Shown piece by piece: positions 2,781 to 38,936 of a stretch of 42,305 bases of DNA. The translations under genes were made by a program, and so were the position numbers. How positions within the stretch are numbered: the first letter of the stretch is position 1; each line of letters begins with the position of its first letter. Origin of the DNA: Planctomycetota bacterium (GTDB lineage: Bacteria; Planctomycetota; B15-G4; JADJEK01); assembly GCA_016213895.1 (NCBI GenBank), contig JACQZJ010000170.1, positions 1-42,305 of the forward strand, written 5' to 3'. The notes beneath the pieces were generated by a model. That model worked only from the letters and a program-made list of their open reading frames with translations, was not told the origin of the DNA and did no database searches.

Positions 2781-5090
2781 CTACGGGACAAGGACCGCGC
2801 GCTCGCTCCGATCCGAGAGGACGACCTGGCCGCCCCCCGCGTCCAGGGTCGCCGCCTGGAAGAAGAGCGCCAGGCCGGTCACTTCAGGCGCGTCCGGCAT
2901 GACCGCGGCGAGCGCCGCGCGTCCGTCGAGGCCGAGCGCCCCGCTCGCGAGCGTCAGCATGACCTGGCTGTCGAGCAGGAAGGGCACCACCGCGCCCGCC
3001 TGCTCGAAGAAGCCGGGCCGCGTCGCGAGGAAGAGCGCGAAGGGCTGCGAGCCAGACGGCCCGGCCATGCTCATGACGAAGGGATCGCCCGGCCGCAGGT
3101 GGCCCACGTCGAGGAGGAAGGCCGAGCCCGAGCGCAGGGCGCCCTCGTTGTCCTCGATGGCGAGCGTGCGCCGCGTCTGCAGCCCGAGCAGGTAGCCCGC
3201 GCCTTGCAGCACCTGCACCGCCAGGGACTCGTCTCCCTCCACGGCCGCGTCATCGACCAGGCTGACCAGCACGCGCACCGTGCTCTGCCCGGACGGCACG
3301 GTCACGACCGCCGGCAGGGGCGCGTAGTCCGCGCCCGCGGCCGCGCTGCCAGACACGGCGAGCTGGACCTGGACCGCGCCGGTGAGAGGCGCGAAGCGCG
3401 TCACCAAGAAGGACGCGGCCGCGCCCGCGGCCTCGGACGCGCGCGGACGATCGAGCGACACGCACACCAGCGGCTGTGTGTTGGCCTCGTCGTCCCGGAT
3501 CATGGCGTCGGCGCTCGCGGCAGCGCCGAGCGCGTAGCCGGCCGCGCTAAGCACGTCGAGCAGCAGGTACTCCGAGACCTCGAACTCGGCGTCGTCGAGC
3601 ACGCTGACCGGCAGGTCCGCGGTGGAGGCGCCCGCGGGAATCACCGCGGCGCCGCCGAGCGGCGCGAAGTCGGCGCCCGGCCGCGCGCTGCCGCGCACGC
3701 GGTACTGGACCGTGAGCGGACTGGCCGTGGAACCGCTGCGCTGGAAACGGAAGAGGATGTCGTCCGACGCGCCCTCTTCGCCGCGGCTGTCGGTCGCTTC
3801 CACCGTCACCACGGGCCTGCCCGCGGCGGACTCGTCATCCACGAGCGCGAGCGCCGCCTTGGCCGCGGCCGCGTCGACGCGGTAGCCCGCGGAAGGGCGA
3901 AGCTGCAGCACGATCGGCTCGTCCGCCTCGACGAGTGAGTCGTTGAGCGGCAGAACGGCAAGGTCGAGCGAGGCGGCGCCCGCTGGAAGGATGGCCGCGC
4001 TGCCCAGGGGGAAGTAATCCACTCCCTCGAGCGCGCTGCCCGCGAGCAGAAAGCGCACCGCGAGCGCGTCGTCCAGAGGACCGCTGCGGGAGATGCGGAA
4101 GGCCGCGCTCGAGCCCGCCCCTTCGGAGAGGCTCGGGGCGAGCGCGCTCGTCGAGACCGTGTTCGCCGGCGCGGTCATGAGCTGCTCGTCGAAGAAGGCG
4201 CGCGCCTCGTCCACGCTGAAGCCCGCGCCGCCGTGCCCGCCGTTCTGGACCGCGACCAGGCGGTAGTCGAGCCCGAAGCCGCGCTCTCCCGCGACCTGCA
4301 GGCGCTCGCTCTGGTTGAAGGGGATAAGCGGATCGGCCGTGCCGTGCACGATCAGCATGGACGGATCGTCCTGGCTGAGGAAGGTCTTCGGGTCGGCGCT
4401 CGCGGCCAGGATCGGCAGCTCCTGGATGGGGCCGCCCAAGAGCTTGGACTCGGGGCACTGGCCAGACTCGTCGCCCAGGCTGCAGGGCGAGGCGTCCATC
4501 CACAGGAAGTCGCTCGCGCCGAACCAGTTGACCACGGCCTGCACGCGGCTCGAGAAGCCCGTGTTGCCGCCGGTCGTGCCTTCCAGATCGATCGTCTGCG
4601 CGCCAAGCGTCACCGTGCCCACGTCACCGAGCGTGCCAACCATCGCCGCCAGGTGGCCGCCCGACGAGCTGCCCCAGACCCCGACGCGGTTCGCGTCGAG
4701 CTGGTACACGGCCGCGTTCTTGCGCAGCCAGCGCACCGCGCCCTTGCAGTCGTGGATCTGCGCCGGCCACGTGGCCTGGCTGCTCAGGCGGTAGTCGATG
4801 CTGGCCAGGGCGTAGCCCTGATCCGCGAGCGGCTTGGCCGTGGGATTGGCCTTGCTGCCGCTCTGCCACCCTCCGCCGTGGATCCACACCACCACCGGGA
4901 ATGGCGGCGCAACGTTGCTCGGGACGTAGAGGTCGAGCTTGAGGTCGAGGGGGCCTTGCGCGGTCTGTACGGATCCGTAGACCAGGTCCGCGGCCACGGT
5001 GTAGTTTTGCGCGGCCGCGACGCCCGGAAAAAAGGCGAGGCACACCATTGCGCCGCGCACGAGACGAGCTATATAGATTGGTTTTCGCAT
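2781..5090 (-). CDS. Secreted alpha/beta hydrolase with Calx-beta repeats
   Basis: The 769-residue product has a signal peptide at residues 1-28 (VCLAFFPGVAAAQ) and a BD-FAE/carboxylesterase-like alpha/beta hydrolase domain at about 30-305. HGGGW (71-75) forms the oxyanion hole, GSSSG (140-144) places nucleophile S142, D253 lies in HGTADPLIPF, and H286 lies in NGGHGGAG. Three Calx-beta repeats follow at about 315-650, each with a 'G.Dy.pl..a..ip.G' core. A C-terminal all-beta domain ends with GLDGRAALAAVMPDAPEV and FFQAATLD, a pattern I associate with Planctomycetota extracellular proteins. It probably de-esterifies an external polymer or lipid while the repeats provide spacing or attachment. 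The ATG at 5090 has AGAAGAGAG just upstream. The gene is divergent from the quinone oxidoreductase gene. Confidence 0.85.
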   Translation of the reverse strand: MRKPIYIARLVRGAMVCLAFFPGVAAAQNYTVAADLVYGSVQTAQGPLDLKLDLYVPSNVAPPFPVVVWIHGGGWQSGSKANPTAKPLADQGYALASIDYRLSSQATWPAQIHDCKGAVRWLRKNAAVYQLDANRVGVWGSSSGGHLAAMVGTLGDVGTVTLGAQTIDLEGTTGGNTGFSSRVQAVVNWFGASDFLWMDASPCSLGDESGQCPESKLLGGPIQELPILAASADPKTFLSQDDPSMLIVHGTADPLIPFNQSERLQVAGERGFGLDYRLVAVQNGGHGGAGFSVDEARAFFDEQLMTAPANTVSTSALAPSLSEGAGSSAAFRISRSGPLDDALAVRFLLAGSALEGVDYFPLGSAAILPAGAASLDLAVLPLNDSLVEADEPIVLQLRPSAGYRVDAAAAKAALALVDDESAAGRPVVTVEATDSRGEEGASDDILFRFQRSGSTASPLTVQYRVRGSARPGADFAPLGGAAVIPAGASTADLPVSVLDDAEFEVSEYLLLDVLSAAGYALGAAASADAMIRDDEANTQPLVCVSLDRPRASEAAGAAASFLVTRFAPLTGAVQVQLAVSGSAAAGADYAPLPAVVTVPSGQSTVRVLVSLVDDAAVEGDESLAVQVLQGAGYLLGLQTRRTLAIEDNEGALRSGSAFLLDVGHLRPGDPFVMSMAGPSGSQPFALFLATRPGFFEQAGAVVPFLLDSQVMLTLASGALGLDGRAALAAVMPDAPEVTGLALFFQAATLDAGGGQVVLSDRSERAVLVP

Positions 5091-8214: not shown

Positions 8215-8253
8215 GCCGCGCCAAGCGGATCAGCGCCTGGCGCCTTTCAGCCT

Positions 8254-9666
8254 TCAACGCAGGTAGCCCAGGCTCCGCAGCCGCTCCTTCTCGTTCTCGC
8301 TGAGATCGAGGGAGTCGGCGATGGTGAAGCCGCCGTCGGCGACGAGGGCGGAGGCGCGTTCGAGCAGTTCCAGGAGCTGCGTCTTGAGCTGCGCCGCGAC
8401 GTCGGGGTGCTCCTGAGCCACGTTGCGCGTCTCGCCGAGATCGGTGCTCAGGTCGAAGAGCAGGCTCCTGGCCTGGTCCGGCGAACGGCTCACGGCGTCA
8501 GTATCCCGCAACACCCGCGGGCCGTCGAAAGTCCCCTCCGCGCGCATTCCGGTCGTCTCGTCCACGGCGCCGCTGTAGTCGAGGACGAGCTTCCACTCGC
8601 CCACTTGCACGCTGTCGGCGATGTGCCCGGGCCGCAGCGCCAGCTCGGCGAGCGCGGGCATGCCGCGCGGCGCGCCCTGCCCCCGCATGGCCTGGAGCAG
8701 GCTCGTGCCCTCGTTCACCGGCGGCAGCGGCAGGCCGAGCAGGTCGAGGGCCGTGGGCAGGACGTCGACCAGGCGCACGACCTCGCCGACGCGCCCGGGC
8801 TGGATCCCCGGCGCGCGCACCATGAACGGCACGCGCAGCGCCTCGCGGAACAAGGTCCAGCCGTGGTCCTGGAAGCCGTGCTCGCCGAACTCCTCGCCGT
8901 GGTCGGCAGCGAACACGACCGCCGTGTCGTCCGCCAGGCCCAGCTCCTGCAGCTCGTCGAGCACGCGGCCCACGTGGTGGTCGGTGAAAGCGATCTCGCT
9001 GTCGTAGCGGCCCGAGGGAGTCGACAGATCGAAGCCGCTCTTGAAGCCATCGTGCACCCGGTAGTTCCGGTGCGGATCGAAGTAGTGCAGCCAGAGCATC
9101 CAGCGCTGGCCCGAGTCCTCTTCCTTGATCTGTCTCAGCCAGGCGATGCCCTTGTCCGAGATCAGGTCGGAGGTGATGGCGTCGTTGAGCCGCTGAAACG
9201 TCCCGCGGCCGTTGACCACTCCCTCGTTGACCACCAGTTCGTCGTCGAAGTGCGCGAAGCCCTGGTTCATGCCGTGGCGCCCGCTCAGGAACACGTGGTT
9301 GGTGACCGCGGCCGTGAGGAACCCGGCTTCCTGGACCATCTCACCCAGGGTCGGGAAGGACGGGTCGAGGACCGAGTCGTAGCGCACGCACCCGTGGGTC
9401 GACGGGTAGAGCGAGGTCATGACCGAGGCGAGGGAGGGCAGGGTCCACGAGGACTGCGCCTGCGCGTTGTCGAAGACCACGGCCTCGCGCGCCAAGGCGT
9501 CGAGGCTCGGCGACGTGGCCACAGCGTAGCCGTAGATCCCCAGGCGATCGGCGCGCAGCGTGTCGATGGTGATGAGCAGCAGATTCCGGGCCTGGGGCGG
9601 AGGATCCGCGCAGCCCGCCAGCAGCCAGCCGAGGGCAAGAAGCGGCAGCAGGCGCGAGCAGCACAT
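8254..9666 (-). CDS. Sulfatase-like lipoprotein lacking the formylglycine motif
   Basis: I chose the ATG at 9666 because it gives a lipoprotein signal (LLALGWLLAGC, lipidated C19). The mature part begins with LLLITIDTLRADRLGIYGY, the first metal-binding motif of the sulfatase/alkaline-phosphatase superfamily (D35). Active type I sulfatases need C/S-x-P-x-R, whose Cys or Ser becomes formylglycine. Here the aligned segment is SWTLPSLASVMTSLYPSTHG, with T75 at the nucleophile position and L79 in place of the conserved Arg. AADHGEEFGEHG supplies later metal ligands. The protein is therefore more likely a phosphohydrolase or phosphotransferase of the superfamily, or an uncharacterised branch, than a classic sulfatase. 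It ends with SENEKERLRSLGYLR, a tail common in this branch. It is expected to be membrane-anchored and extracytoplasmic. Confidence 0.85.
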   Translation of the reverse strand: MCCSRLLPLLALGWLLAGCADPPPQARNLLLITIDTLRADRLGIYGYAVATSPSLDALAREAVVFDNAQAQSSWTLPSLASVMTSLYPSTHGCVRYDSVLDPSFPTLGEMVQEAGFLTAAVTNHVFLSGRHGMNQGFAHFDDELVVNEGVVNGRGTFQRLNDAITSDLISDKGIAWLRQIKEEDSGQRWMLWLHYFDPHRNYRVHDGFKSGFDLSTPSGRYDSEIAFTDHHVGRVLDELQELGLADDTAVVFAADHGEEFGEHGFQDHGWTLFREALRVPFMVRAPGIQPGRVGEVVRLVDVLPTALDLLGLPLPPVNEGTSLLQAMRGQGAPRGMPALAELALRPGHIADSVQVGEWKLVLDYSGAVDETTGMRAEGTFDGPRVLRDTDAVSRSPDQARSLLFDLSTDLGETRNVAQEHPDVAAQLKTQLLELLERASALVADGGFTIADSLDLSENEKERLRSLGYLR

Positions 9667-10032
9667 GAGAAGACCATCCGATCCGGCGGCGCAGCGTCCC
9701 CCCGTGGCGGAGAGGCGACCGAGCGAGCTGCCAGGCCGTGTAGCTCGCCAAGTGCGCAAGGCAACCCTCGAATCCACGTCACCCCGGGCGATGCCGCCCG
9801 CGGAGGACCCGGATCAGGATGTCCGCTGCGAACCGCCGGCGCCCGAGCGTGCCACGCCCTGCACCCACATCGCAGGCTACCGCCCGCAACAGAGTTTCAA
9901 GACGGACGCCATGCCCGGGCTCTCATCGCGTCACGCCGACGAAGTCACGGGTGTCGCGAGTTCAGACAATCCGCCCGAAAGTCGTGAACTCCAGCTGAGC
10001 CTCTCTTGCGGAGAGGCTCAGCGCAGGCGTCG
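9667..10032. other. Intergenic region with repeat copy 2, no gene seen
   Basis: This 366-base stretch lies between two minus-strand lipoprotein genes. Its right end holds the second copy of the hairpin repeat (9957-10021). The remainder has no frame with a plausible start and ribosome site, and no clear promoter. It probably contains the promoter of the sulfatase-like gene. Confidence 0.5.
9957..10021 (-). repeat. Hairpin-containing dispersed repeat, copy 2
   Basis: On the minus strand this copy begins 11 bases after the stop codon of the lipoprotein gene at 10033-10599 and runs in the same direction. The hairpin arms CTGAGCCTCTC and GAGAGGCTCAG pair over 11 bases around loop CGCAA. The core 9967-10021 is 85% identical to 1228-1282 with no gaps, and seven of the eight differences are transitions. 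The hairpin arms are unchanged between copies; variation sits in the loop and tail. Confidence 0.8.
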
Positions 10033-10599
10033 CTAGCCGCCGAAGCCCACCGGGTTCGGGCCGCTCAGCAGGTAGACCGCCGTCTTGTCACCAGAGGTCG
10101 ACACGTTGATGAGGTGATGCAGGAGATGCCACGACGTGTGCTTCTGGCTCATGCCGCACATGGAGTGATCCATCTCATGCACCATGGCCAGGTGTCCCCA
10201 GAGCACCGAGCCGGCCAAACTGCCGTCCATCCTCACGCCCTTGGCGTCGAAGCTGGCCCGCTCCTCCGAGACCCAGACCATTGAGAGCGGCCCGTAGCCG
10301 CGCGTCTTCTCCACGCTGTAGAGCGTACCGTGGCCCGGCATGTCGTGGACCGTCACCGAACCGCGCTCCCAGTAGGCCAGGAGGCCGAGCGGCCAGAGGT
10401 CGGTCTTCTCGATGACCAGCTCGCTTCCGGAGGCGCCGCCCGCGCGCGCCGCGGCGACCTCCTCCTGGTAGCGGGCCAGCGTGGCGGCGTCCAGGTCTCC
10501 CACGAGGTCGACGTTCTTGAACGAGGCGGCGCCTCCGTCGAAGGTGGAGCAGCCAAGGGCGGAGACGAACGAAAGGGCGAGGAGAGACGTGCGGATCAT
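10033..10599 (-). CDS. Lipoprotein of unknown function
   Basis: The ATG at 10599 has GGGAG 8 bases upstream; a TTG one codon earlier is less likely. The first 17 residues (MIRTSLLALSFVSALGC) form a lipoprotein signal with a clear lipobox and lipidation at Cys17, so the 188-residue product is probably anchored in a membrane and faces the periplasm. The mature part contains HDMPGHGTLYSVEKTRGYG, and the C-terminal half is rich in His and Met (GHLAMVHEMDHSMCGMSQKH and then TSWHLLHHLINVSTSG). That could bind a metal, but no known motif is matched. I recognise no family. The gene is flanked by the histidine kinase gene upstream and repeat copy 2 just downstream. Confidence 0.7.
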   Translation of the reverse strand: MIRTSLLALSFVSALGCSTFDGGAASFKNVDLVGDLDAATLARYQEEVAAARAGGASGSELVIEKTDLWPLGLLAYWERGSVTVHDMPGHGTLYSVEKTRGYGPLSMVWVSEERASFDAKGVRMDGSLAGSVLWGHLAMVHEMDHSMCGMSQKHTSWHLLHHLINVSTSGDKTAVYLLSGPNPVGFGG

Positions 10600-10681
10600 C
10601 AAGAGTTCTCCCGAGGGTTGCAGCGGTGGAAGGGAACCAGTTCCGAATCGCTGGCTATAGCACGGGCCGCGCCCGCCGCCA

Positions 10682-13258
10682 TCAGATGCCCAGGATCTCG
10701 CGCACCTTCTCGGCGAGATCGCGCGCGCCGTATGGTTTCTGGATGAAGCCCGCCAGCCCCTTGCCCGTGAACCTGCTGGTCGCGTCCTGCTCGTCGTAGC
10801 CGCTCGAGAGGATGATGGGCACGTCTGGCCGGATGCGGCGCAGCTCGCGGAAGGTCTCGTCGCCGCCGAGCAGCGGCATGGTCATGTCCAGCAGGATGCC
10901 GCGGATGCCGGCCGCGCGCGCGCGGAAGAGGTCGACCGCCCTCTGCCCGTCCTCGGCGAGGAGCACGTCGAAGCCGGCGCGCTTCAGGCTCTGCTCGGCG
11001 AGGAAGCGCACCGTGGCCTCATCGTCCACCACCAGGATGGTGCCCGCGCCGCGCCACGGCGCGCGCGCCTGCGCGCGCACCTCGAGCGACGCCGCCGGCT
11101 TGGCGGACGCGGGTAGGAGCACGCGGAACGTCGTCCCCTGGCCCGGCGCGCTGTCGATCTTGATGGCGCCCTTGTGGCCGCGCACGATGCCCAACACCGC
11201 GGCCATGCCCAGGCCGCGGCCCTGGAACTTGGTGGTGAAGAAGGGATCGAAGACGCGCGCCCGCGTCTCCGCGTCCATGCCGCAGCCGCTGTCCGCCACC
11301 TCGAGGAAGACGTACTTCCCCTCGGCCAGGCCGGCGTCCGGGAAGAGACCAAGAAGGTAGCCGCGATCGGCGGCCATCGCGCCCGTGCAGATGCGGATCA
11401 TGCCACTCTGGTCGCCGAGCGCGTCGGACGCGTTGGTGATCAGGTTCATGACCACCTGGCGCACCTGCGTGGGATCGCCCTCGACGGGCGGCAGGCCGCG
11501 CGCGAAGTCGAACTCGAGGCGCGCCTTCTTCGAGATCGATGCCACCAGCAGGTTGGTCATCTCCTCGACCAGGCTGTTGAGCTGGAAGACCTGCACCTGG
11601 AAGCGGCCGCGGCCTGAATAGGCGAGCATCTGGCGCGACAGCTCGGCCGCGCGCAGCGCCGCCTTCTCCACCTCCTCGAGCAGCGGCCGCGCCGGCGCGT
11701 CCGGCGCCAGGTCCATGAGCGCCATGCCGGTGTTGCCGAGGATGCCGACCAGCAGGTTGTTGAAGGCGTGCGCGATCCCGCCGGCGAGCACGCCCAGGCT
11801 CTCGAGCTTCTGCGCGTGGCGCATCTGCGACTCGAGGCGCTGGCGCTCCTCCTCGGCGCGCTTCCTTTCCACGCCGAGCGCGATGCGGTCCGCGACCAGG
11901 GCCAGGGCCTGGATGGCGGCGTCCGTCAGCGCCTGGCGCGAGAACATGGCCACCACTCCCACCAGGCGCTCTTCCACGAGCAACGGATGGCCGGCGAACG
12001 CGATCACGCCCTCGCGCCGCGCCCACTCCTTGTCGTGCATGAGGTGGTCGCTGCTCACCGAGTTGGTGAGGTGCGGGCGGCGCTCGAGCGCGACCTGGCC
12101 GACGCGGTAGCGGCCTACCGGGATGCACGCGTACTCGCCGTCGAGGCGCGTCTCCAGGCCGGCGCTGGCTTGCATCTCCAGCACGTCCCCGCGCGCGTTC
12201 AGGGTCCAGATGCGCGCCAGGGCCGCGCCCAGGTGGCGGACCATGCCCTCGGCGCAGCGCTGCAGGCCCTCCTGCAGCGAGCCGCCCTGGGCGATGGCGA
12301 AGCCGACGTGCTCGGCGAAGGCCTCCATGCGGGCGCGCGCGCGGCGCTCTTCCTCGGCGCGCACGCGTTCGGTGATGTCGCTGGTCGAGACCAGCACGCC
12401 GGCCAGAGCCTCCTCGCGGCCCGCGGCCACGGTGAGGCGGCGGCTCACCACGCGCCGCTCGCCGTCGAGCATGCGCACCGCGCCATCCGTGGCCACGAAG
12501 GACGCGCCCGAGGCGATGGCGGTCAGCTCCCGCTTGAACAGCTGGCGGTTCTCCTGCCCCAGGATCCTCTCCAGTCCGGCGACGAAGTCCGCCGCGTCCC
12601 GCGCGCCGTAGAGCGCCACCGCGGCGCGGTTCACGCCGGTGACGCGCACGCGCCGGATGCACTCGTCCACCTCCTGGGGATGATCGCCGAAGAACGCCTC
12701 GAAGTCGCCCACGCCGGCGCCGCGCAGCTCCTCGAGGCGCGCGCCGACCGCGGAAAGGTCCTCTTCCCAGAGGGCCACCGGGGACTCCTCGAACAGCCGG
12801 CGGTAGCGCCTCTCGCTCGCCTCCACGGCCTGCTCGGCGAGCCGGCCGGCGGTGACGTCGCGGATGAAGCCCTCCAGGTAGGCGAGCGCGCCGTCGCGGA
12901 ACACGCCGGCGCCGACCTCCTCCAGCCAGCGCCATTCGCCCGAGCGGTGGCGGATGCGGTACACCAGGTGGAACGGCTCGCCCTGGGCGAGCGCGGCGTC
13001 CACCAGCGAGAAGATCCCGGCCGCGTCCTCCGGGTGGTAGAGCTGGACGAAGCTGATGCGGTCGCTGAGGAACTCCTCGCGCGTGTAGCCGGTCAGCTCC
13101 TCAACCGCGTCGTTGAGGTACAGCATGCTGTAGCGCTCGTTGTTGCGGCAGAGGTAGATGACGCCGGGGATGTTCTCAGCCAGAAGCGAGAAACGCTCCT
13201 CGCTCTCGCGGAGCGCCTGCTCGGGGGCCAGGGAGAGACCGCCCTCGTCCGGGCTCAT
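10682..13258 (-). CDS. Hybrid sensor histidine kinase (PAS, PAS-like, GAF, HisKA, HATPase, REC)
   Basis: The 858-residue soluble kinase has a PAS domain at about 15-145 (NDAVEELTGYTREEF, then a PAC motif ending FIRDVT), a second PAS-like region at about 150-300, and a GAF-like domain at about 315-470. The dimerisation/phosphoacceptor helix is GGIAHAFNNLLVGILGN with H497. The ATPase domain shows MNLITNASDAL (N box), DSGCGMD (G1) and GRGLGMAAVLGIVRGHKG. A C-terminal receiver has DDE at its start and phosphoacceptor D791 in ILLDMTMP. The usual H-box HDFNN reads HAFNN here. It has no membrane segment, so it senses a cytoplasmic signal or is recruited to a complex. No response-regulator gene is adjacent; the fused receiver probably passes phosphate to an unlinked phosphotransfer protein. 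Confidence 0.93.
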   Translation of the reverse strand: MSPDEGGLSLAPEQALRESEERFSLLAENIPGVIYLCRNNERYSMLYLNDAVEELTGYTREEFLSDRISFVQLYHPEDAAGIFSLVDAALAQGEPFHLVYRIRHRSGEWRWLEEVGAGVFRDGALAYLEGFIRDVTAGRLAEQAVEASERRYRRLFEESPVALWEEDLSAVGARLEELRGAGVGDFEAFFGDHPQEVDECIRRVRVTGVNRAAVALYGARDAADFVAGLERILGQENRQLFKRELTAIASGASFVATDGAVRMLDGERRVVSRRLTVAAGREEALAGVLVSTSDITERVRAEEERRARARMEAFAEHVGFAIAQGGSLQEGLQRCAEGMVRHLGAALARIWTLNARGDVLEMQASAGLETRLDGEYACIPVGRYRVGQVALERRPHLTNSVSSDHLMHDKEWARREGVIAFAGHPLLVEERLVGVVAMFSRQALTDAAIQALALVADRIALGVERKRAEEERQRLESQMRHAQKLESLGVLAGGIAHAFNNLLVGILGNTGMALMDLAPDAPARPLLEEVEKAALRAAELSRQMLAYSGRGRFQVQVFQLNSLVEEMTNLLVASISKKARLEFDFARGLPPVEGDPTQVRQVVMNLITNASDALGDQSGMIRICTGAMAADRGYLLGLFPDAGLAEGKYVFLEVADSGCGMDAETRARVFDPFFTTKFQGRGLGMAAVLGIVRGHKGAIKIDSAPGQGTTFRVLLPASAKPAASLEVRAQARAPWRGAGTILVVDDEATVRFLAEQSLKRAGFDVLLAEDGQRAVDLFRARAAGIRGILLDMTMPLLGGDETFRELRRIRPDVPIILSSGYDEQDATSRFTGKGLAGFIQKPYGARDLAEKVREILGI

Positions 13259-13373
13259 CGCGGATCGTGCTCCAGGAGGCTGTGGCGGAAGAGCATGAAC
13301 GGCGTGTGACGCGCGCAGTCTAGCGCGCGCGTCCGCCGTGCCAGGCCCCTTTTCCGCGCGGGTGCGCCCGCGC

Positions 13374-14603
13374 TCAAAAGTCGTTGACGCCGCCGCCCGA
13401 AACCGTGTTGTCGCGCCCGCGGTTGTTGTCGGTGGGAACCGCGCCGTCGATCAGGCCGTCGCCGTTCTTCGCCTCGTTCCGCTCGAGCCAGGTGAGTTGG
13501 CCCAGGACCTGCACGCCCTCGCCGCCGTTGTTCTTCATCTGGCAGTCGCGGATCTTGGTGCCGATCACGCCCGCGGTGACGTAGATGCCGTGCCCGCCGT
13601 TGCTGTTCGCGGTGAGCGAGAGCAGGTTGGTCCCGCCCTCGGTGAGGCGCAAACCATCGTTCAGGTTGCTGTTGAAGACGCCGCCCTTCACGGTCGCGCC
13701 CAGGCCGCCGCCGAGCAGGCCGTAGGTGTTCTGCTTGGCCGTGCAGTTCTGCAGCAGGACCTGGGCGTCCACGGTCGTGTTGTCCAGGTTGAAGCCGGCG
13801 TTCGTGTTGCCGTTCGACTCGCAGCTCAGCAGCCGATGGCCGGCGCCCTCCACGAAGAAACCGTCCAGACCACCGCCGCCCGCGACCGTCCTCTTCACGT
13901 AGTGGCCGTTGCCGCGCAGCGTGATGACCCCGGGGTGGCTCGCCCACTGCCCGCCGGTCGCGATCGCGGTGCAGCCGCTGAGCATGCAGTTCAGCGCCTG
14001 GCTGGTGAGCACGATGCCGCTGAGGCCGCAGGCGCTGGCCTCGCAGTTCGTCAGCTCGTGGCCGAAGCCGTCGAGGAAGAAGCCGTAGCCCGCCATGTCC
14101 GAGAAGTCGCACTCGGTGAAGCACACGCCGAGCACGGTGACGCCCGAAACGACCACGCCGATGTCGTCGCCGGCGACTCCCTGCACCGAGGCCACCTCGA
14201 TGTTGGCCGACTGGCCGTCGATGCGCAGCGCGGCCGCGCCGTCGATGGCGCTGCCGCTGTTGAGGGTGAGGTTCTGCAGCACCACGTTTTCCGAGCCCTG
14301 GATCAAGACCGCTGGACCTCCCTGGCCAACGATCCGCGCCTGGCCGTCGCCGCTGCGCTTGATCGTGAGCTTCGCCTGGCCCGGCAGCACGGCGCTGGCC
14401 ACGGTCACGGACTCGTTATACGTGCCCTTGGGGATGAGCACCGTGTCGCTCGTGTCGGCGTTGGCGAGCGCCTGATCCACGGCGTCCTGGATCGTGACGA
14501 TCGCGCCCTGGCCCACGGTGATCTGTTCGGCCGAGGCGCCGCCGCAAAAGGCCAGCGCAACACCGGCTCCGAGAAGCGAGATCTTGATCGAGTTCTGAGT
14601 CAT
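13374..14603 (-). CDS. Secreted right-handed parallel beta-helix protein 1
   Basis: The ATG at 14603 is preceded by AGGAG at 8 bases. The 409-residue product has a signal peptide (residues about 1-25, ending GGASA) and a pectate-lyase-like N-cap, with TIQDAVDQALANADTSDTVL and IPKGTYNESVTV. Many imperfect turns of 20-25 residues follow, rich in 'G..l..C...'-type steps such as GIVLTSQALNCMLSGCTAIA and NTYGLLGGGLGATVKGGVF. This is the NosD/PbH1 repeat pattern. Such proteins bind or cut polysaccharides; no lyase active site can be picked out, so an adhesin or binding role is as likely as enzymatic activity. It ends SGGGVNDF, with no anchor. Confidence 0.85.
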   Translation of the reverse strand: MTQNSIKISLLGAGVALAFCGGASAEQITVGQGAIVTIQDAVDQALANADTSDTVLIPKGTYNESVTVASAVLPGQAKLTIKRSGDGQARIVGQGGPAVLIQGSENVVLQNLTLNSGSAIDGAAALRIDGQSANIEVASVQGVAGDDIGVVVSGVTVLGVCFTECDFSDMAGYGFFLDGFGHELTNCEASACGLSGIVLTSQALNCMLSGCTAIATGGQWASHPGVITLRGNGHYVKRTVAGGGGLDGFFVEGAGHRLLSCESNGNTNAGFNLDNTTVDAQVLLQNCTAKQNTYGLLGGGLGATVKGGVFNSNLNDGLRLTEGGTNLLSLTANSNGGHGIYVTAGVIGTKIRDCQMKNNGGEGVQVLGQLTWLERNEAKNGDGLIDGAVPTDNNRGRDNTVSGGGVNDF

Positions 14604-26434: not shown

Positions 26435-26866
26435 ATGCAATCGCGATTCCGGAGCGTTTCCCTGTTCCTCGTCCTGCTCGCCGCCCTCGCCGCCGCCGTG
26501 GCCGCGGGCGAGCTTCTCGCCTCGGTTCCGACCATCCGCGGCAAGGGCAAGGTCAAGAAGGAGCTCGAGTTCCAGGTCCACTTCCTCGCGGTCGCTACCG
26601 GACAGCCGGTCTACAGCGTGCCCGCGGGCAAGACCCTCGTGATCACCGACGTGGTCGTGGCCAACGACTCGGCGGCGACAGCCGGCCTGTTCCGCATCGA
26701 CGACGGCTCATCCGATCCCCTCCACCCCCACGTTCGAGTGCCGGCCGGCGGCACCACGCATCTCGCCTATATGACTGGGCTGGCCGTGCCTGAGGGCACG
26801 CAGGTGTACGCCGCGAACCACGGCTCCACCATCCTGCACGTGCGCCTGGCCGGCTACCTCATGTAG
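26435..26866 (+). CDS. Small exported protein, paralogue A
   Basis: AAGGAGG lies 5 bases before ATG 26435. The 143-residue product has a signal peptide (residues 1-30, SLFLVLLAALAAAVAAGELL) directly followed by SVPTIRGKGKVKKELEF, a block nearly identical in paralogue B at 38511-38936. The rest looks all-beta, with VPAGKTLVITDVVVANDS, TTHLAYMTG and a closing LHVRLAGYLM. The 'vPaGkt.vITDvvv.NdS' pattern resembles small jelly-roll proteins. Hand alignment gives about 65% identity between the paralogues over their whole length. Function is unknown. It converges with beta-helix 3, 23 bases apart. Confidence 0.8.
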   Translation: MQSRFRSVSLFLVLLAALAAAVAAGELLASVPTIRGKGKVKKELEFQVHFLAVATGQPVYSVPAGKTLVITDVVVANDSAATAGLFRIDDGSSDPLHPHVRVPAGGTTHLAYMTGLAVPEGTQVYAANHGSTILHVRLAGYLM

Positions 26867-35361: not shown

Positions 35362-35474
35362 GCGAGGACTCCTCCGGCCAGAGGCGCGGGAAGCTTCAGA
35401 CTAGGCGGCGGCGCCCGCGCCCGCAACGCCTTCGCCGGCGCGGCCAAGCGCCGCGGCCCACGCAAGGAGGCAAC

Positions 35475-38400
35475 ATGAAGCGATCCGCGTCTCGATCCTC
35501 TCTCGCCCTGCCGGCCGCGCTCGGCGCCCTCGCTGCCGCGGCCCTGCTTCCTGGCGTGGCCCGGGCGGATTCCGGGCTGGACCAGGCCTCCCTCAAGGCG
35601 GTGCGCGCGGCGGCGCTCTGGGTGGCGGAGCAGGCCAAGCGGCTCCCGGAAGGGACCGGCGTGGTCTTCCCGGAGTACGCCGAGTCGCCGGAGGAGACCG
35701 GCGCGCCGCTCTACTCGGGCGGAGCGGGCGTCTTGATCTTCCTCGAGAACGCGGGCGCGCTCCTCGAGGACGAGGCGCTCCGCGCGCTCGCCGACCGCAC
35801 GGCCGCGGGCCTGCTCGGCTTGGCGCGCGAGACGGAAGACGGCCGCCTCACCTGGGCCGCGGACAGCCCCGGCGCGGAGGCGGCGGGCCTCTACACCGGC
35901 GACCCGGGCATCGGCCAGGCCTTCCTGGTGCGCGCGAGGATCCGCGGCAGCAAGCAGGACCTCGAGGTGGCGGCCGAGGTCGCGGCCTGCCTCGCGGCGC
36001 GCGTGAAGAAGGAGGGCGCCGAGACGTGCTTCGGCGGCTCGTTCGACATCATCGCCGGCGCCTCGGGCGCGCTCCTCTTCCTGCTCGAGGCGCATGAAGC
36101 GCTCGGCGATTCGCGCTTTCTCGATGCTGCTCTGGGCGCGGGCCGCTGGCTCGCGGCCGAGGGCCTGCCAGGCGACGGCACCCGCTCCAACAAGGAGCGC
36201 TCGCTCTGGTGGCCGCCGGCCAAGGGCGAGGAACGCCACTACCCCGGCTTCTCGCACGGCACCGCGGGCACGGCCTACGCGCTCGCGCGCCTCGCGGCCG
36301 CGAGCGGCGACCGCGCGTGCCTCGACGCCGCGCTCGCCGGCGCGCGCTGGCTGCTCGAGAACGGCAAGAGCGAGAACGGCGGCCTGTGCTGGCACCACTA
36401 TTCGCCGGGCCACGAGGACCGCTTCATGGAAGGCTGGTGCCATGGCCCATCCGGCACGGGCCGGCTGTTCCTCCTGCTCGCCGACCTCACCGGGCAGAAG
36501 GAGTTCGCGGAGGCCGCGCGGCGCTCGGCCGCCTGGATCATGAAGAAGTGGCCTGACCCGGGCGCGGCGAGCTCGGAAGCGCGCTTCTACTCGCCGAGCC
36601 TCTGCTGCGGGGCCGCGGGCGTGCTCGACTTCTTCGTCGACCTCCACCGCGCCACGGGCGAGCGGCGCTACGCCGCCTACGCGCGCGAGGTGGGCGCCTA
36701 CCTCGAGCACCTGGCGAAGCCCGACGGCGCCGGGCTCAAGTGGACCAACTACGACCGGCCGGACGAGCAGGGCGTCATCTACCACGGCGTGAGCCTGATG
36801 ATCGGCACGAGCGGCGAGGCGTTCGCCCTGCTGCGCCTGGCCACGCTCGGCCTGAAGGAGGACCCGATCCGTCATTTGCCCGACCGGCGCGTCACGGCCG
36901 GCCGCAGGATGGGAGCGCCCCCGGCGCCGCCCCTGCCGCGCGAGGAAGAGGCGGCCGAGAAGGCGCTCCAGGTCGAGGTCGAGACTCCGGAGCACGGCCA
37001 CGGCGGCGACGGCTACGTGGTGCTCACCAACCGCTCGCGCAAGGGCGATCCCTTCTTCGAGGCCGCGAGCGAGCTCTGCAGGTGGCGCGGCGGCAAGCTC
37101 GTCACCGACTTCGATCCGGAGGCGCCGGAGCGGGTGATCCCGCTGCTGCGCGAGGCGGGCGCGCGCCACGTCGCGCTCGTCCTGCCCAAGGAGGACATCG
37201 ACACCAACACGCAGCGCCGCTTCCTCATGGCCGCGGCGCGGCTCGACGAGGACATCTTCCTGGACGTGGGCTACGGCTTCATCACCGGCACGAAGGAGAC
37301 GGCGCCGCTCGACCTGGTGGCGCGCGCCAAGGCGCTGGAAGAGCGCGGCAGCGAGAAGCGCTGGATCGGCACGGGCGTGGCGAGCCAGATCAAAAGCGTG
37401 GTGTACGAGGGCGCGGGCGACCCGGCCGCGCAGCTCGCGGGCTTCAGCGGCCGCTCGATCTACTGGGGCTCGCTCGAGTCCGATCCGGAGGTGCTCGACT
37501 TCGTCAAGCGCGAGCTGCCGGAGATCGAGGGCGGCGGGTTCGTGGACTTCGGCGGCTGCGGCGATCCCGAGGGGATCTGGCTCTTCTCCGATCAGCGCAA
37601 CATGCAACACGAGAAGCACTGGCCCTTCGACCCGAAGAAGGTCGGCCACGACCCGAAGGGCGAGATGCCGCGCATCACCGCGGACCTGATCCGCCTGATG
37701 CACCTCGAGAACACCGTGGTGTTCACGGGCGTCTGCCACATCGGCACGCTGCATCGCGTGTTCGTCGAGGGCGACATCGTCTCGACCTTCGGCACGACCT
37801 CGGGCCACACCGAGTACGTGATCCCCGAAGGGAAGAGCGTGGCCGCGGCCATGCTCGACACGGGCGTGGCGGCCTACATCTGTCCGATCGGCCCGAACCA
37901 CGGCTACCGCACCCTGCAGGAGAGCCAGGAGGCGTTCGAGCGCCAGCTGTCGCTCGGCGACGTGCTGCGCTCCACGTACGACGACATCGCCGTGGCGCAG
38001 GGCAAGCAGCCCGAGCTCGACCTCTACGTGCCGGGCAAGGACGACGTGGACGCGGCGCGCGGCGCGGCCATGTACGGCGGCGGGGCGAACCGCACGCTCT
38101 ACGGCGATCCGGCGCTGAGGCCCTTCCGCTTCGAGATCGAGCCCGCGGTGGCGGTGACGCGCGCGCCGCTTGCGGGCGCGGGCCGCGGCTTCCAGGTCGA
38201 GGCGCGCGTCCTGCACCAGGACTACTGGCAGTGGAACATGTTCACGATCGACGGGAACGCGGAGCGCATCCGCGCGCTCGTCGCGCTGCAGCAGGACGAC
38301 GCTGAGCGCCTCACGGTCACGGCGAGCGCGCGGGACGACAAGGGGGCGGCGATCCAGCTCGGCCGCCTCGACGCGCACGTCGAGTGCATGGACGGCGGGC

Positions 38401-38492
38401 GCGTGCTGCACCTGCAGGCGGCGGCGCCGCGGGGGCTCGGCCTGGGAGAGGTCGGCTCCAGGGCGTCGTTCGTGGTGCGGGAGCGCAAATAG
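35475..38492 (+). CDS. Secreted fusion of a LanC-like cyclase domain and a gingipain-like C25 domain
   Basis: AAGGAGG precedes ATG 35475. The 1005-residue protein has a signal peptide (to about residue 31, LLPGVARA). Residues 32-470 form a LanC-type alpha/alpha barrel: YSGGAGVL (from 80), FDIIAGASG with D191, GFSHGTAG with H261, W321-C322 in WCHGPSGTG and C377-C378-G in SLCCGAAGVLDFF. These correspond to D141, H212, W283-C284 and the second zinc pair of NisC; Cys replaces the usual His, as in the CCG cyclases of the ProcM type. After a linker, residues about 515-880 resemble C25 peptidases: VVLTNRSRKGD, VVFTGVCHIGTL with C754, AAMLDTGVAAYICPIGPNHG and LYGDPALRPF. The equivalent of the catalytic GHG reads GGCGDPEGIW (C695). 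A C-terminal beta domain follows. The substrate is unknown and no precursor peptide is nearby. Confidence 0.8.
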   Translation: MKRSASRSSLALPAALGALAAAALLPGVARADSGLDQASLKAVRAAALWVAEQAKRLPEGTGVVFPEYAESPEETGAPLYSGGAGVLIFLENAGALLEDEALRALADRTAAGLLGLARETEDGRLTWAADSPGAEAAGLYTGDPGIGQAFLVRARIRGSKQDLEVAAEVAACLAARVKKEGAETCFGGSFDIIAGASGALLFLLEAHEALGDSRFLDAALGAGRWLAAEGLPGDGTRSNKERSLWWPPAKGEERHYPGFSHGTAGTAYALARLAAASGDRACLDAALAGARWLLENGKSENGGLCWHHYSPGHEDRFMEGWCHGPSGTGRLFLLLADLTGQKEFAEAARRSAAWIMKKWPDPGAASSEARFYSPSLCCGAAGVLDFFVDLHRATGERRYAAYAREVGAYLEHLAKPDGAGLKWTNYDRPDEQGVIYHGVSLMIGTSGEAFALLRLATLGLKEDPIRHLPDRRVTAGRRMGAPPAPPLPREEEAAEKALQVEVETPEHGHGGDGYVVLTNRSRKGDPFFEAASELCRWRGGKLVTDFDPEAPERVIPLLREAGARHVALVLPKEDIDTNTQRRFLMAAARLDEDIFLDVGYGFITGTKETAPLDLVARAKALEERGSEKRWIGTGVASQIKSVVYEGAGDPAAQLAGFSGRSIYWGSLESDPEVLDFVKRELPEIEGGGFVDFGGCGDPEGIWLFSDQRNMQHEKHWPFDPKKVGHDPKGEMPRITADLIRLMHLENTVVFTGVCHIGTLHRVFVEGDIVSTFGTTSGHTEYVIPEGKSVAAAMLDTGVAAYICPIGPNHGYRTLQESQEAFERQLSLGDVLRSTYDDIAVAQGKQPELDLYVPGKDDVDAARGAAMYGGGANRTLYGDPALRPFRFEIEPAVAVTRAPLAGAGRGFQVEARVLHQDYWQWNMFTIDGNAERIRALVALQQDDAERLTVTASARDDKGAAIQLGRLDAHVECMDGGRVLHLQAAAPRGLGLGEVGSRASFVVRERK

Positions 38493-38510: not shown

Positions 38511-38936
38511 CTACCTCAGGTAGCCGGCCAGGCGCACGTGCAGGACGGTGAAGCCCGTGTTCCCGGCGTGCACCTGCCTGCCCTCAGCCACGGCGATCCC
38601 CGTCAGGTATGCGAGATGCGTGGTGTTTCCTGCCGTCACCCGCACGAAGGTATTGAGCGGTTGAAACAACTCGTCAAAGATGTTGAACAGGCCGGGCGTC
38701 GTTGTCGAGTCATTGGTTACGACCATGTCCGTGATCACGAAGGTCTTGCCCGCCGGAACGGTGTACACCACCTGTAACGCCGAGGGCTGGAGGAAGGGGA
38801 TCAAGAACTCCAGCTCCTGCTTCACCCTGCCCTTGCCCCGGATGGTCGGAACCGAGGCGAAGACCTCGTTCACAACGACAGCGCCCAGGAGGGCGGCGAA
38901 CAGGACAAGAAACAGGGAAATGCTGCGACTGTGCAT
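38511..38936 (-). CDS. Small exported protein, paralogue B
   Basis: The ATG at 38936 has GGAGG 4 bases upstream. The 141-residue product has a signal peptide (SLFLVLFAALLGAVVVNEVF) and the conserved block SVPTIRGKGRVKQELEF. VPAGKTFVITDMVVTNDST, TTHLAYLTG and the closing HVRLAGYLR follow. It aligns with paralogue A (26435-26866) over its whole length with a two-residue gap. The nucleotide sequence is also clearly similar around the SVPTIRGKG block, so the duplication is not ancient or the block is under strong constraint. It converges with the LanC-C25 gene, 18 bases apart. Function unknown; expected outside the cytoplasm. Confidence 0.8.
   Translation of the reverse strand: MHSRSISLFLVLFAALLGAVVVNEVFASVPTIRGKGRVKQELEFLIPFLQPSALQVVYTVPAGKTFVITDMVVTNDSTTTPGLFNIFDELFQPLNTFVRVTAGNTTHLAYLTGIAVAEGRQVHAGNTGFTVLHVRLAGYLR

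Follow-up and report, generated by a model that had tools for sequence, protein, structure and literature searches.

The fusion gene and its surroundings

The analysed window, a stretch of 42,305 nucleotides, is the entire contig C142 of a 5.5 Mb planctomycete assembly that is 95.5 % complete. Its forward strand carries an unbroken open reading frame (P0001, 35475..38492, +; ATG at 35475, stop codon ending at 38492, GC3 0.95) encoding a LanC and C25-like fusion protein of 1005 amino acids, the architecture of which is kept in ten genomes. A likely ribosome-binding site, AAGGAGG (35464..35470, +), lies 4 bases 5' of the start codon. The N-terminus, MKRSASR-SSLALPAALGALAAAALLPG-VARA followed by DS, resembles a Sec signal when judged by eye, and together with the low pLDDT at residues 1-31 it points to a predicted signal peptide (residues 1-31; 35475..35567, +) cleaved between VARA and DS; the N-termini of relatives also contain signal-like stretches (by eye). 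The LanC domain (residues 36-470; 35580..36884, +) follows, then a linker (residues 471-495; 36885..36959, +) with pLDDT below 50 at residues 476-493, the C25-like, gingipain-fold domain (residues 496-890; 36960..38144, +), and a C-terminal beta-sandwich (residues 892-1003; 38148..38483, +) whose strands are seen in the predicted models. A preliminary description of the locus had recognized one open frame in which a LanC-type barrel and a C25-type domain follow a signal peptide, and its coordinates agree with ours. The full-length model reached a pLDDT of 89.2; owing to its pTM of 0.61, the predicted placement of the two domains relative to each other is uncertain.

The fusion gene is solitary. 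Upstream lie cydA and cydB (cytochrome bd oxidase) on the opposite strand, and downstream, also on the opposite strand, a gene for a small secreted protein, so that beside the fusion neither a precursor peptide nor a transporter was found, as had been noted before together with the lack of an adjacent LanB gene. The small secreted protein belongs to a family (ASVPTIRGKGKVK...) that is repeated in the genome, with copies in the window at 26435-26866 (+) and 38511-38936 (-); in the congener L001 members are encoded at 3453-3914 and 4106-4528, and the family adjoins the fusion in both congeners. The copy at 38511-38936 (-) has no Pfam match; considered as a possible substrate, it was rejected as a thioether precursor because it is cysteine-free.

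Clustering of the open reading frames of about 50 loci revealed no recurrent gene next to the fusion. Single neighbors included an AAT-type amide hydrolase relative in genome G146 (L040:3474-4682) and, in genome G162, a TPR-CHAT protein whose N-terminus resembles a signal (L035:4239-7772), each close behind the fusion on the same strand, and in genome G108 a neighbor with a sub-threshold match to DUF6252.

The LanC half

Pfam LANC_like (PF05147) matches residues 77-456 with an E-value of 3e-36 and 125.2 bits against a cut-off of 23.2, whereas the NCBIfam models of LanL, LanM and LanKC match through the cyclase part only and far under their cut-offs, the class IV LanL cyclase domain being the nearest. 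The best 20 PDB fold matches of the full model are all LanC or LanCL proteins or LanC-containing synthetases, including LanCL2, MadC, CuvL, GCR2, LanCL1 and NisC (those with a single domain have a TMt of about 0.70), and sugar epimerases, GH76 and GH127 rank behind them. Comparison of predicted structures, proposed in the preliminary description, thus placed this half with NisC, LanCL and MadC, and the C-terminal half with RgpB.

The active-site positions named at the outset were all found where they had been placed. The predicted active site comprises Asp191 (36045..36047, +), which we take to be the position of NisC Asp141; His261 (36255..36257, +), at the catalytic acid position of LanC proteins corresponding to NisC His212 and LanCL1 His219; Trp321-Cys322-His323 (36435..36443, +), with the first zinc ligand and the equivalent of LanCL His277; and Cys377-Cys378 (36603..36608, +), the second and third zinc ligands. 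None of these positions, that of His323 included, varies among the full-length same-order fusions (9/9, six families), and Asp191, His261, Trp321-Cys322 and Cys377-Cys378 are near-invariant across a wider LanC alignment. A role as catalytic acid has been described for the LanC histidine at the position of His261 (PMC9934072).

Since Cys322 and Cys377-Cys378 are invariant, the predicted zinc triad of the fusion is Cys-Cys-Cys, of the CCG type, and the notion of NisC-like zinc ligands finds no support, the third ligand being cysteine instead of histidine. The CCG class is linked to promiscuous LanMs with a wide substrate range (PMC10027976), and the same zinc class has been named CCC (PMC11251773). 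The position of LanCL1 His277 is always histidine in eukaryotic LanCLs and mostly tyrosine in bacterial LanCs (PMC9934072); judged by its sequence, His323 follows the eukaryotic LanCL pattern. The kept ligands suggest that the barrel would bind zinc, and its residues together with the families it resembles predict thia-Michael activity.

The C25-like half

The C-terminal half was assigned solely through fold and profile-profile comparison. Sequence searches of Pfam, NCBIfam and the PDB returned no family for it and no solved relative by sequence profile, and Pfam Peptidase_C25 (PF01364) gave no match to the fusion protein even at an E-value of 10. The model of this half (pLDDT 90.6, pTM 0.92) has gingipain RgpB as its best PDB match (4ief_B, E 5.8e-10, prob 1.00), followed by the Craspase TPR-CHAT protein and then separase, with the anti-sigma factor DdvA (8rot) among the weak matches. 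When a profile of 12 true planctomycete C25 peptidases was compared with the C-terminal family, hhalign gave a probability of 96.2 % (E 2.4e-9). True C25 peptidases occur in 62 of 119 Planctomycetota genomes, with five matches in the genome of the window itself.

In the profile alignment, the catalytic histidine of C25 peptidases (GHG) falls on Cys695 (37557..37559, +) and the catalytic cysteine on Cys754. The histidine position is occupied by cysteine in five and by asparagine in four of the nine fusions. Cys754-His755 (37734..37739, +), with Cys754 at the nucleophile position, is constant over 22 C25-like members, in which cysteine or asparagine takes the histidine position; Asp697, Arg708, Asn709 and His715-Trp716 (37617..37622, +) are also invariant. 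GHG is retained only in the reverse-order protein of locus L047 (GGHG...YACHTG) and in one C25-like gene of locus L110 (GGHGSP). The motif YGDPALRPF, previously reported at the end of the domain, is present at residues 876-884 (38100..38126, +), and its GDP is common to true C25 peptidases.

The C25-type domain claimed earlier therefore stands as far as the fold is concerned, and falls short in the PF01364 profile and in the His-Cys dyad, neither of which was found. A working gingipain-type peptidase is unsupported because the dyad histidine is replaced by cysteine or asparagine throughout the same-order fusions. As far as the alignments can tell, the domain is a divergent C25 relative and not a canonical gingipain. 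The loss of the catalytic histidine could mean that it is dead; the strict retention of Cys-His, Asp697, Arg708-Asn709 and His715-Trp716 says, at the level of conserved residues, that it is not simply decaying.

Recurrence of the pairing in Planctomycetota

In a survey of 392 Planctomycetota genomes, several of them fragmented MAGs, 47 contained matches to the fusion protein. A single frame with LanC followed by the C25-like domain was found in ten genomes from six GTDB-type families (G000, G179, G108, G162, G271, G131, G210, G115, G146 and the contig-truncated G288), nine of which provided the full-length proteins for residue and divergence comparisons. A scan of a large collection, which reaches close relatives only, returned two relatives, both from planctomycete MAGs: L001 (DYIW01000106.1; 87 % in the best segment), from a congener, and L002 (JAIOPE010000132.1; 53 %). 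Beyond Planctomycetota, the search consisted of this close-relative scan, and the pairing may not be limited to the phylum.

The reverse order, C25-LanC, was found in G132 (L047), G146 (L069 and L111), G115 (L112), G233 (L113) and G288 (L114), and probably also in G124 (L048); the C25 part of L069 has a weak Pfam match (E 0.021). Both orders are present in G115, G146 and G288. In two genomes, G233 (L042) and G271 (L110), LanC and C25-like domains are encoded by separate neighboring genes on the same strand. The fusion is thus a recurrent planctomycete family, with the pairing in at least a dozen genomes, rather than an isolated oddity, and the preliminary suggestion that a pairing conserved across genomes with retained zinc ligands would support the architecture is borne out by the ten same-order genomes and by the invariance of the ligands in nine fusions.

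Several arrangements at these loci deserve mention in their own right. L110:1-7004 (G271:C566) contains a same-strand row of LanC, C25-like, LanC (with an internal stop) and C25-like genes, the last of which keeps GHG. In L069, a gene for a C-terminally extended C25-like protein (8235-10256) abuts a gene for C25-like and LanC domains (10256-13768), the LanC part of which is of the CHG type; the two share one base if the stop codon is not counted. A similar arrangement exists in G124 (L019, L048), divided by contig ends.

Parallel divergence of the two domains

When the nine full-length fusions are compared in all 36 pairs, LanC-half and C25-half identities correlate with r = 0.94. Compared with the congener L001, dN and dS are 0.098 and 0.226 for the LanC half (dN/dS about 0.43) and 0.049 and 0.127 for the C25 half (dN/dS about 0.39); in this comparison both halves are under purifying selection, and the C25 half is the slower one (91 % identity between congeners, 84 % for the LanC half). 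In the LanC tree, the fusions form one clade with three LanC-only proteins and the LanC encoded by the neighboring gene in G233 (97/95), while the reverse-order proteins form a separate clade (100/99).

The reverse-order paralogues L111:2950-6429, L112:2745-6560, L113:2-3241 and L114:4354-7239 have lost both sites. The zinc ligands are missing: L111 and L114, from which this was read, have GWSYG in place of GWCHG and lack the CC pair. The C25 cysteine motif is also absent in 4/4. As these four are closely related, the double loss may be a single event; the joint disappearance of both sites fits a coupled function. A short open reading frame resembling the exodeoxyribonuclease VII small subunit (by eye) lies close by in L111, L112 and L114. 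The recurrence of the pairing in several arrangements provides strong association evidence that the LanC and C25-like domains act on a common substrate.

Search for a lanthipeptide pathway

The genome of the window contains a single LanC domain, and hence no LanM, LanKC or LanL within the 95.5 % complete assembly. LanB was not found in this genome or in 12 other genomes with the pairing, in a search that detected the positive control G192, so that its absence, first described for the vicinity of the gene, extends to the whole genome; in the phylum LanB is uncommon (5/246 genomes, one of them sub-threshold). A profile search found neither a dehydratase nor a kinase domain in the fusion protein. 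Earlier, 3052 unclassified LanC-like proteins were reported, 1392 of which remained after filtering (PMC7268733). No published description of the LanC and C25 architecture was found in the open-access literature, in line with the initial remark that a described system of this kind was not known.

Proposed function and alternatives

The explanation we favor, and hold somewhat tentatively, is that the protein is an exported two-domain zinc enzyme of thiol addition or retro-addition, the altered C25 domain of which holds or handles a peptide substrate. What was computed is the architecture, the two folds, the conserved residues, the recurrence of the pairing, the in-step divergence of its halves and the absence of LanB; the export, metal, chemistry and substrate that we infer would be as follows. 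The fusion protein would be exported by Sec, and its LanC barrel, given the conserved ligands, would bind Zn via Cys322, Cys377 and Cys378. The barrel would activate a thiol and add it to an alkene, e.g., dehydroalanine or dehydrobutyrine, of a peptide or protein, with His261 acting as the acid and His323 stabilizing the enolate; alternatively, it might run the reverse elimination. The C25-fold domain, which has lost the dyad histidine and kept Cys754-His755, would not be a classical gingipain and would most likely recognize and hold, or covalently handle, the same polypeptide. No known lanthipeptide dehydratase or synthetase was recognized in the genome, so the electrophile would have to come from elsewhere: from exported proteins that undergo beta-elimination, whether spontaneously or by an enzyme, or from foreign peptides. 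Several points count against this explanation: the LanC-only relatives in the clade of the fusions, which imply that the C25 half is not always required in cis; the lack of a conserved neighboring partner; the uncertain placement of the two domains relative to each other; and the lost C25 histidine, which could just reflect a dead domain. A bolder version, in which a dehydratase-free extracytoplasmic thia-Michael machine combines the LanC barrel with a re-wired C25 domain (Cys-His, not His...Cys) and makes or breaks thioether bonds in proteins that are either exported or foreign, strikes us as doubtful.

The C25 half could instead have peptidase or transpeptidase activity through a rearranged site in which Cys754 acts with His755 or His715, and the LanC domain would modify its product. 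The invariance of Cys754 and His755 in 22/22 members and the slower change of this half between congeners speak for such activity, but the general-base histidine is replaced by cysteine or asparagine, and we regard this as unlikely. A defensive role, in which the enzyme opens the thioether rings of competitors' lanthipeptides by retro-Michael reaction or caps dehydroamino acids with thiols while the opened peptide is bound or cut by the C25 domain, would need no dehydratase of its own and would suit the predicted export of the protein; LanC enzymes are capable of the retro-Michael reaction (PMC9934072), and the CCC site is tied to a wide LanM substrate range (PMC10027976). However, resistance or immunity genes do not recur beside the fusion, which leaves this role rather unlikely.

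Quite unlikely, in our view, is the maturation of an exported RiPP, with rings closed outside the cytoplasm by the cyclase and a leader removed by the C25 domain. A cyclase and a protease-fold domain do share one chain, and unclassified LanC-like genes with RiPP-type neighbors have been noted (PMC7268733), but the genome has no known lanthipeptide dehydratase, an adjacent precursor candidate is absent, the neighboring small secreted protein being cysteine-free, and the C25 histidine is lost. A glycan-active role for a repurposed alpha/alpha barrel, similar to the Cys-Zn glycosidases of GH127 and not involving thiol addition, is very unlikely: the weak GH127 profile match (E 8e-4) amounts to 18.9 bits against a cut-off of 24.9, compared with 125 bits for LANC_like, and GH127 HypBA1 appears among the lower fold matches only, behind 20 LanC proteins, while the LanC histidine and aspartate are invariant. 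That an assembly or sequencing join produced the frame, a reading to which the separate neighboring genes in G233 and G271 might lend some color, has a practically negligible chance and is refuted by the same-order fusion in ten independent assemblies from six families, so that neither of the two outcomes named beforehand as fatal, a fold unlike LanC or a join of two genes, was encountered.

Comparison with known systems

Known LanC enzymes either partner dehydratases in the cytoplasm or are eukaryotic glutathione transferases. The fusion has the fold, zinc ligands, catalytic histidine, aspartate and W-C-H in common with LanC and LanC-like proteins (PF05147: NisC, MadC, the cyclase domain of the LanL CuvL, LanCL1/2), but differs from them in its predicted export, its C25-fold partner, the absence of a dehydratase from the genome and the cysteine as third ligand. 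It shares the Cys-Cys-Cys triad with the CCG-type LanM cyclases ProcM and SyncM, in which this triad is linked to a broad substrate range; unlike them, it has neither a dehydratase domain nor precursor peptides, and it is predicted to be exported. With the eukaryotic LanCL glutathione transferases it shares W-C-H (the His277 equivalent, 9/9 fusions) and, as we propose, intermolecular thiol addition without a dehydratase of its own, whereas LanCL, which has a Cys-Cys-His zinc site, acts intracellularly. The alpha/alpha barrel and the Cys-Zn site also occur in the GH127 beta-L-arabinofuranosidase, which is a much weaker match in sequence and fold, the fusion keeping the LanC residues. Peptidases of family C25 (gingipains R and K, PorU) resemble the C-terminal half in their fold, cysteine at the nucleophile position and beta-sandwich after the core, and they are exported, as the fusion is predicted to be. 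In contrast to them, the fusion domain lies under Pfam detection, has cysteine or asparagine in place of the histidine, and carries an extra invariant histidine after the cysteine as well as WLF..RN..HW motifs.

The recurrent LanC and C25-like pairing without the usual partner enzymes suggests an undescribed extracellular peptide chemistry. If our explanation is true, thioether chemistry would also take place in the periplasm or extracellularly; on the bolder version, LanC chemistry would reach beyond the cytoplasm and the gingipain fold would have a new catalytic variant. Some of the 1392 LanC-like proteins reported as "unclassified" (PMC7268733) might belong to this family, which could also yield promiscuous cyclases or de-cyclases able to work without a leader peptide.

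The C25-like domain is also found in another context, that of anti-sigma factors with clan-CD-like exported parts. In L049:7426-10302, L050:9135-11912 and L051:8629-12018 the same domain is fused to zf-HC2 and a weakly matched TPR, whereas the fusion of the window has neither zf-HC2 nor a sigma partner. A clustered family resembling ECF sigma factors (by eye) occurs near C25-like genes at seven loci (L023, L042, L049-L053), and these neighbors, together with the zf-HC2 fusions, suggest a sensor role of the domain. At L053:6388-10968, a frame of 1526 amino acids contains two tandem C25-like copies.
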